Assembly (NCBI GenBank): GCA_018241985.1 | Contig: JAFECV010000042.1 | Location: forward strand, 1-10,038 | Source: Pseudomonadota bacterium | Lineage (GTDB): Bacteria; Pseudomonadota; Gammaproteobacteria; Burkholderiales; Burkholderiaceae_C | Length of the DNA: 10,038 nt | Direction of reading: 5' to 3' | In this document: positions 5,800 to 6,652 of the stretch, one piece after another | How positions within the stretch are numbered: the stretch's first letter is position 1 | Layout of the letters: the number at the start of each line of letters is the position of its first letter | The notes under the pieces: generated by a model | What the model was told of the DNA's origin: nothing | What the model saw: the letters and a program-made list of their open reading frames with translations, nothing else | The model's database searches: none | Translations under genes and position numbers: made by a program

Positions 5800-6652
<853 letters not shown>

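Follow-up and report, generated by a model that had tools for sequence, protein, structure and literature searches.

A 14-nucleotide gap that divides rpsC in a draft Burkholderiales genome, most likely an error in the record

The S10 operon and the two pieces of rpsC

The window, that is, the whole stretch of DNA analysed here, is a single contig of 10,038 bases (C366). It belongs to a draft assembly that totals 3,128,957 bases over 820 contigs and is 89.86% complete and 1.12% contaminated. Named matches come from Rhodoferax, Polaromonas, Comamonas, Variovorax, Acidovorax and similar genera, and place the sequence among Comamonadaceae-type Burkholderiales. The minus strand carries part of an S10 operon, comprising rplC, rplD, rplW, rplB, rpsS, rplV, rpsC, rplP, rpmC, and rpsQ. 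NCBIfam profiles provided the names of rpsC, rplV, and rplP, while the other genes of the operon were named from a reading of their proteins. The rpsC gene encodes ribosomal protein uS3 (S3), which is generally treated as essential. It sits between rplV and rplP, collinear with the corresponding locus (L111) of the closest congener.

This congener (G001) served as the reference. Its sequence is one contig of 3.7 Mb, 91.5% identical to the window over 6.4 kb, and it stands in for the intact rpsC of the window's own species, which was not found. Six of the seven genomes sampled from the genus, the window's own included, matched a 600-nt query, with G001 the best of the others (95% identity over the query) and G006 giving no match. 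No S3 protein of the same species occurred among the 120 proteins listed by a homology search, in which 8000 candidates were scored and the best identity was 89%. Even the S3 of G001 is missing from the proteins listed, and the group may simply not be represented in the database.

Reading of the window confirms that its rpsC is broken, as an earlier note on this DNA had claimed: the gene is split into two frames between positions 6483 and 6482 (Table 1). The 5' piece aligns with residues 1–59 of the G001 protein at 95% identity in frame -3, and the 3' piece with residues 63–289 at 94% identity in frame -1 (tblastn). Translation from the start codon remains S3-like through VSRVLIER, and then continues as non-family sequence until its stop.

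Table 1. Coordinates of the rpsC pieces and of the sequence features at their junction
Feature	Position	Strand	Description
5' piece of rpsC	6483..6652	-	uS3 residues 1 to ~56; from the ATG at 6652 to the junction
Junction	6482..6483	-	14 nt of the closest congener missing between two bases; sole placement with 0 mismatches; 14-nt gap relative to L111
3' piece of rpsC	5800..6482	-	NARITIHS... from 6480; 226 codons and a stop at 5800; in another frame than the 5' piece
Unshifted-frame product	6050..6652	-	200 aa, S3-like only over the first ~60; frame from the ATG at 6652, stop ending at 6050
Left arm of inverted repeat	6486..6495	-	pairs with the right arm at 9 of 10 bases; computed coordinates, predicted hairpin
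Right arm of inverted repeat	6473..6482	-	starts exactly at the junction; computed coordinates, predicted hairpin

Profile searches divide the gene in the same place. The NCBIfam model for bacterial S3 (TIGR01009, rpsC_bact) matches the 5' piece over model positions 1–61 with 68.9 bits, below its cut-off of 114.5, and matches the open reading frame of the 3' piece, in a different frame, over positions 75–210 with 204.7 bits. No single continuous frame of the window's rpsC spans this model above the curated cut-off. Pfam domains are confined to the 3' piece, where the scanned open reading frame holds a complete Ribosomal_S3_C (positions 1–83 of 83) and a partial KH_2 (positions 38–77 of 78); the unshifted frame of 200 aa matches zero Pfam families at E ≤ 1. 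A sequence search of the PDB also identified the 3' piece as S3.

In its gene order, its neighbours, and the match of both protein pieces, the locus is that of a bacterial uS3 gene in an S10 operon. It departs from such a gene in having its frame broken by 14 missing nucleotides. For comparison, 123 rpsC loci were collected, of which 113 have an open S3 frame (these include two genomes that were counted twice, as L019/L111 and L020/L115). The other ten are nine loci from the window's own genome and one locus (L044) from a record titled Polaromonas sp. P2-4, complete genome. The window's 14-nt gap is absent both from the 113 open-frame loci and from L044.

Size, placement, and sequence context of the gap

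The distance from the ATG to the AAC of NARITI is 186 nt in G001 and 172 nt in the window, a difference of exactly 14. When all placements of one 14-nt loss from the G001 sequence were tried, only a loss between 6483 and 6482 reproduced the window with 0 mismatches, while four nearby placements each needed 1. Restoring the 14 nt yields 62 codons followed by the 226 of the 3' piece, making 288 codons plus a stop. Both the size of the gap and the restored length agree with what the earlier note had calculated.

The mechanism that the note proposed, slippage between two copies of GAACGC, does not fare as well. Copies at both of the required places are found in none of the 113 open-frame loci. GAACGC at the Glu–Arg codons occurs in only 3 of them, the Glu being written GAA in 10 and GAG in 103. 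G001 has GAG CGC at the first place, and the repeat-based placement therefore costs 2 substitutions, against 0 for a plain loss of 14 nt. The window's deletion is short and clean, like slippage deletions between short direct repeats. However, G001 has no direct repeat at the ends of the lost segment, and the placement with 0 mismatches has no equally good alternative. Slippage between two GAACGC copies is thus not supported by the relatives' sequences or by the mismatch count. The note had also taken the neighbouring ATA codon as a separate reason to doubt the base calls, and this does not hold either. ATA encodes this isoleucine in 1 of the 113 loci, but a plain loss of 14 nt generates it without any substitution. 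Since that loss reproduces the window without mismatch, the ATA and GAA codons would most simply be products of the junction itself.

The junction lies between the arms of an inverted repeat. On the minus strand, positions 6473–6495 of the window read as a near-palindrome, CGCGCGTGCT-GAT-AGAACGCGCG. In G001, the arms enclose a loop of 17 nt. All 14 nt absent from the window belong to this loop and directly abut the right arm. By a post hoc definition, approximately 0.38% of the placements of a random 14-nt loss over 230,501 bases of G001 (12 of 81 reference stretches) would land in a loop of this kind. The short form present in the window is predicted to fold better than most shuffled sequences (z of -2.2 on the minus strand and -1.5 on the plus strand). 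For the intact G001 stretch, predicted folding is no better than that of shuffles (z of 0.9 and 0.7). Arms that match at 9 of 10 bases are found in 6 of the 113 loci, with G001 twice among them, and arms that match at all 10 in none.

A library or sequencing fault related to a hairpin is therefore a possible source of the gap, as far as folding predictions can suggest. The case for a hairpin origin is weak, because the intact G001 stretch folds no better than shuffled sequence, and the inverted repeat could also favour a real deletion in the cell. In the excerpted text of two papers, Illumina miscalls are described downstream of inverted repeats (PMC3622629), on a platform that may differ from that used for the window's genome, and inverted repeats are named as a source of sequencing bias (PMC4872057). 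The latter excerpt also reports a coverage dip of its own that predicted secondary structure left unexplained, and both excerpts concern miscalls and coverage bias rather than losses of 14 nt. Literature searches on hairpin deletion and on ribosomal pseudogenes in draft genomes each returned no paper combining all the topics, and a search on polymerase artefacts gave nothing useful among the matches listed.

Conservation of rpsC and frame breaks elsewhere in the assembly

The residues lost at the gap are kept in all 113 loci with an open S3 frame, where the segment reads IERPAK, IERPSK, or IERPAR. The earlier note had reasoned that relatives lacking PAK here would speak against a deletion between repeats; no such relative was found among these loci. 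Of the proteins that the homology search listed, 118 of 120 likewise have the motif, and the remaining two begin downstream of the site. In CEG 2.0, rpsC is called an essential gene in the part of the source available (PMC7731928).

The sequence after the gap is that of a gene under selection. Of the 226 codons that follow the gap, the first 150 contain 10 synonymous nucleotide differences and 0 amino-acid changes between the window and G001 (dN 0, dS 0.098); this comparison leaves out the variable 3' tail, which does differ from G001. In the 57 codons before the gap, 3 amino acids are changed and 6 differences are synonymous, the junction codon accounting for one of the latter. There is no sign of gene decay in the first 150 codons after the gap relative to G001. 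As dN is 0 over these codons, rpsC stayed under selection as an S3 gene, at least until very recently. For the same reason, the lesion, if real, would have to be very young.

Elsewhere in the window, no comparable break was seen among the genes compared: all 16 of the other open reading frames tested agree with G001 in one frame over the part covered by L111, with ptsI compared over residues 12–249 of 531 only. The ribosomal protein genes rplC, rplD, rplW, rplB, rpsS, rplV, rplP, rpmC, and rpsQ each lie in one frame relative to G001.

The background of such breaks was sampled from 60 more contigs of the same genome (eight of them N only), 80 stretches of G001, the window, and L111. Of the 1311 G001 genes in these stretches, 115 could be compared with the draft's own contigs, amounting to 102,501 coding bases. 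Comparison at the protein level gave two frame splits in the draft's contigs, one in rpsC and one in contig C410 (L135). The latter is a frame change relative to G001 at about 7411–7416, upstream of where a response-regulator gene likely starts (MRLLLVEDD), in what looks like 5' non-coding sequence. It was not counted as a coding frame break because it lies 5' of that start.

A cruder comparison at the DNA level gave 15 gene pieces with at least 45 bases out of frame. On review, rpsC was the only clear coding break among them, and most of the others stay in a single frame once a 5' offset is passed. One piece, the window against L111 at 1192–2641, looks like a run across several genes, and two stay ambiguous (L146/L197 at 12204–13500 and L150/L261 at 2376–4356). 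A raised rate of coding frame breaks was thus not seen over the approximately 102 kb compared, with these two pieces ambiguous. The reverse control on the G001 stretches gave 4 raw splits, consisting of a window open reading frame antisense to known genes and ambiguous open reading frames in L135, L148, and L150. That in L148 (contig C5, 6240–7287) is open in the window's genome and occupies two frames, at 68% and 87% identity, in G001 (L229), and might be either a shadow open reading frame or a frame difference in one of the two genomes. By this coarse estimate, the background of frame breaks is probably low and the break in rpsC looks isolated, which counts somewhat against a plainly sloppy assembly as the explanation.

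Copy number of rpsC and the origin of the gap

The gap is best read as an error in the draft consensus, with a probability of approximately 0.9, the living organism having an ordinary, intact rpsC. This reading is preferred because a single-copy, strictly selected, and essential gene is broken in one draft and, in this manner, in none of the relatives compared. An artefact was also among the options that the earlier note had listed. Counted in favour of an error are the single rpsC, the retention of the lost stretch in 113 of 113 relatives' loci with an open S3 frame, the lack of decay, the in-frame neighbours, the fragmented assembly of 820 contigs, and the position of the gap inside the 17-nt loop of a GC-rich inverted repeat. 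Counted against it is that the assembly is not generally ridden with indels, rpsC being the only clear break in about 100 kb. Under such an error, the 14 bases would be present in the cells, and a fault at library amplification, sequencing, or assembly would have dropped them from the consensus. The inverted repeat may have helped to cause the fault, with a polymerase or an assembler skipping the loop.

The case resembles frame-breaking errors in public assemblies, in that a single break affects an essential, single-copy, and selected gene of a fragmented draft. However, the assembly errors treated in the available part of a review (PMC8021871) are indels of long noisy reads, while the window loses 14 nt in one step. 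Broken records of rpsC do occur in public data, as L044 illustrates. At positions 2282–2510 of that locus, the rpsC frame is broken by a small indel upstream of VLIER, with GQKINP in one frame and VLIER and PAKNAR in another. This lesion differs from that of the window and lies just upstream of the same codons. The rplV gene directly before it also appears to change frame, and the break in L044 is probably a sequencing error in the record. A different anomaly is seen in one S3 protein on record (P0002, 343 aa, encoded on a single contig of 2851 bases), in which a segment of about 50 residues is repeated internally and ...NAMR appears twice; it is probably an assembly chimera.

The rival that survives best, itself improbable, is a true deletion in the cells that were sequenced, together with a second, intact rpsC in the part of the genome, roughly 10%, that was left unassembled or unbinned. 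At 89.9% completeness a copy could indeed be missing, and a deletion within the loop of an inverted repeat would be plausible in cells. The earlier note had suggested looking for such a copy, and none was found in the contigs. The profile search gave one rpsC match in all, and the DNA search gave one match together with 41 short ones at E 0.0016 or weaker (40 of 195 candidates scored). Of 150 genomes of the family, counting that of the window, 140 gave a single rpsC match and ten gave none. A spare copy is not expected from these counts, since every one of the 140 genomes with a match has a single rpsC, and the lack of decay over the 150 codons after the gap also argues against it. In all the other genomes with a match, the open frame around the S3 C-terminal domain is longer than in the window, where it measures 226 aa. 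With the exception of three, these frames reach at least 267 aa. The three, G095:C83 (243 aa), G068:C47 (254 aa), and G115:C14 (257 aa), may reflect contig ends, real differences in length, or further frame breaks.

Still less probable is a deletion that is real but rare, present in a handful of cells (mutant, dying, or dead) or in one damaged molecule that was amplified, and that became the consensus at low coverage. The 820 contigs suggest low or uneven coverage, and 150 unchanged residues after the gap mean that the lesion, if real, is very young. It requires, however, that coverage was thin at exactly the rpsC junction.

The least probable rival is a deletion that is real and fixed, with no other rpsC, in which a +1 frameshift after CTG ATA makes a working uS3 five residues shorter. 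Skipping one base at 6481 would join VLI to NARITI, but this is arithmetic only and no signal supports it: the +1 site of prfB has a nearby stop codon, whereas the junction has none and the unshifted frame stays open as far as 6050, the resulting protein would be missing residues that all 113 relatives' loci retain, and those loci, rather than sharing a conserved shift site with an interrupted frame, each carry one open frame through the full stretch.

An error in the draft consensus thus remains the preferred explanation, and as most likely a flaw of one draft record, the gap carries little biological weight. A real lesion would imply either a second copy of rpsC, seen in 0 of the 140 family genomes that have a match, or ribosomes able to tolerate or correct a broken S3 gene. 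The locus is a useful caution that an essential gene may appear broken in a draft genome even though its neighbours are intact.
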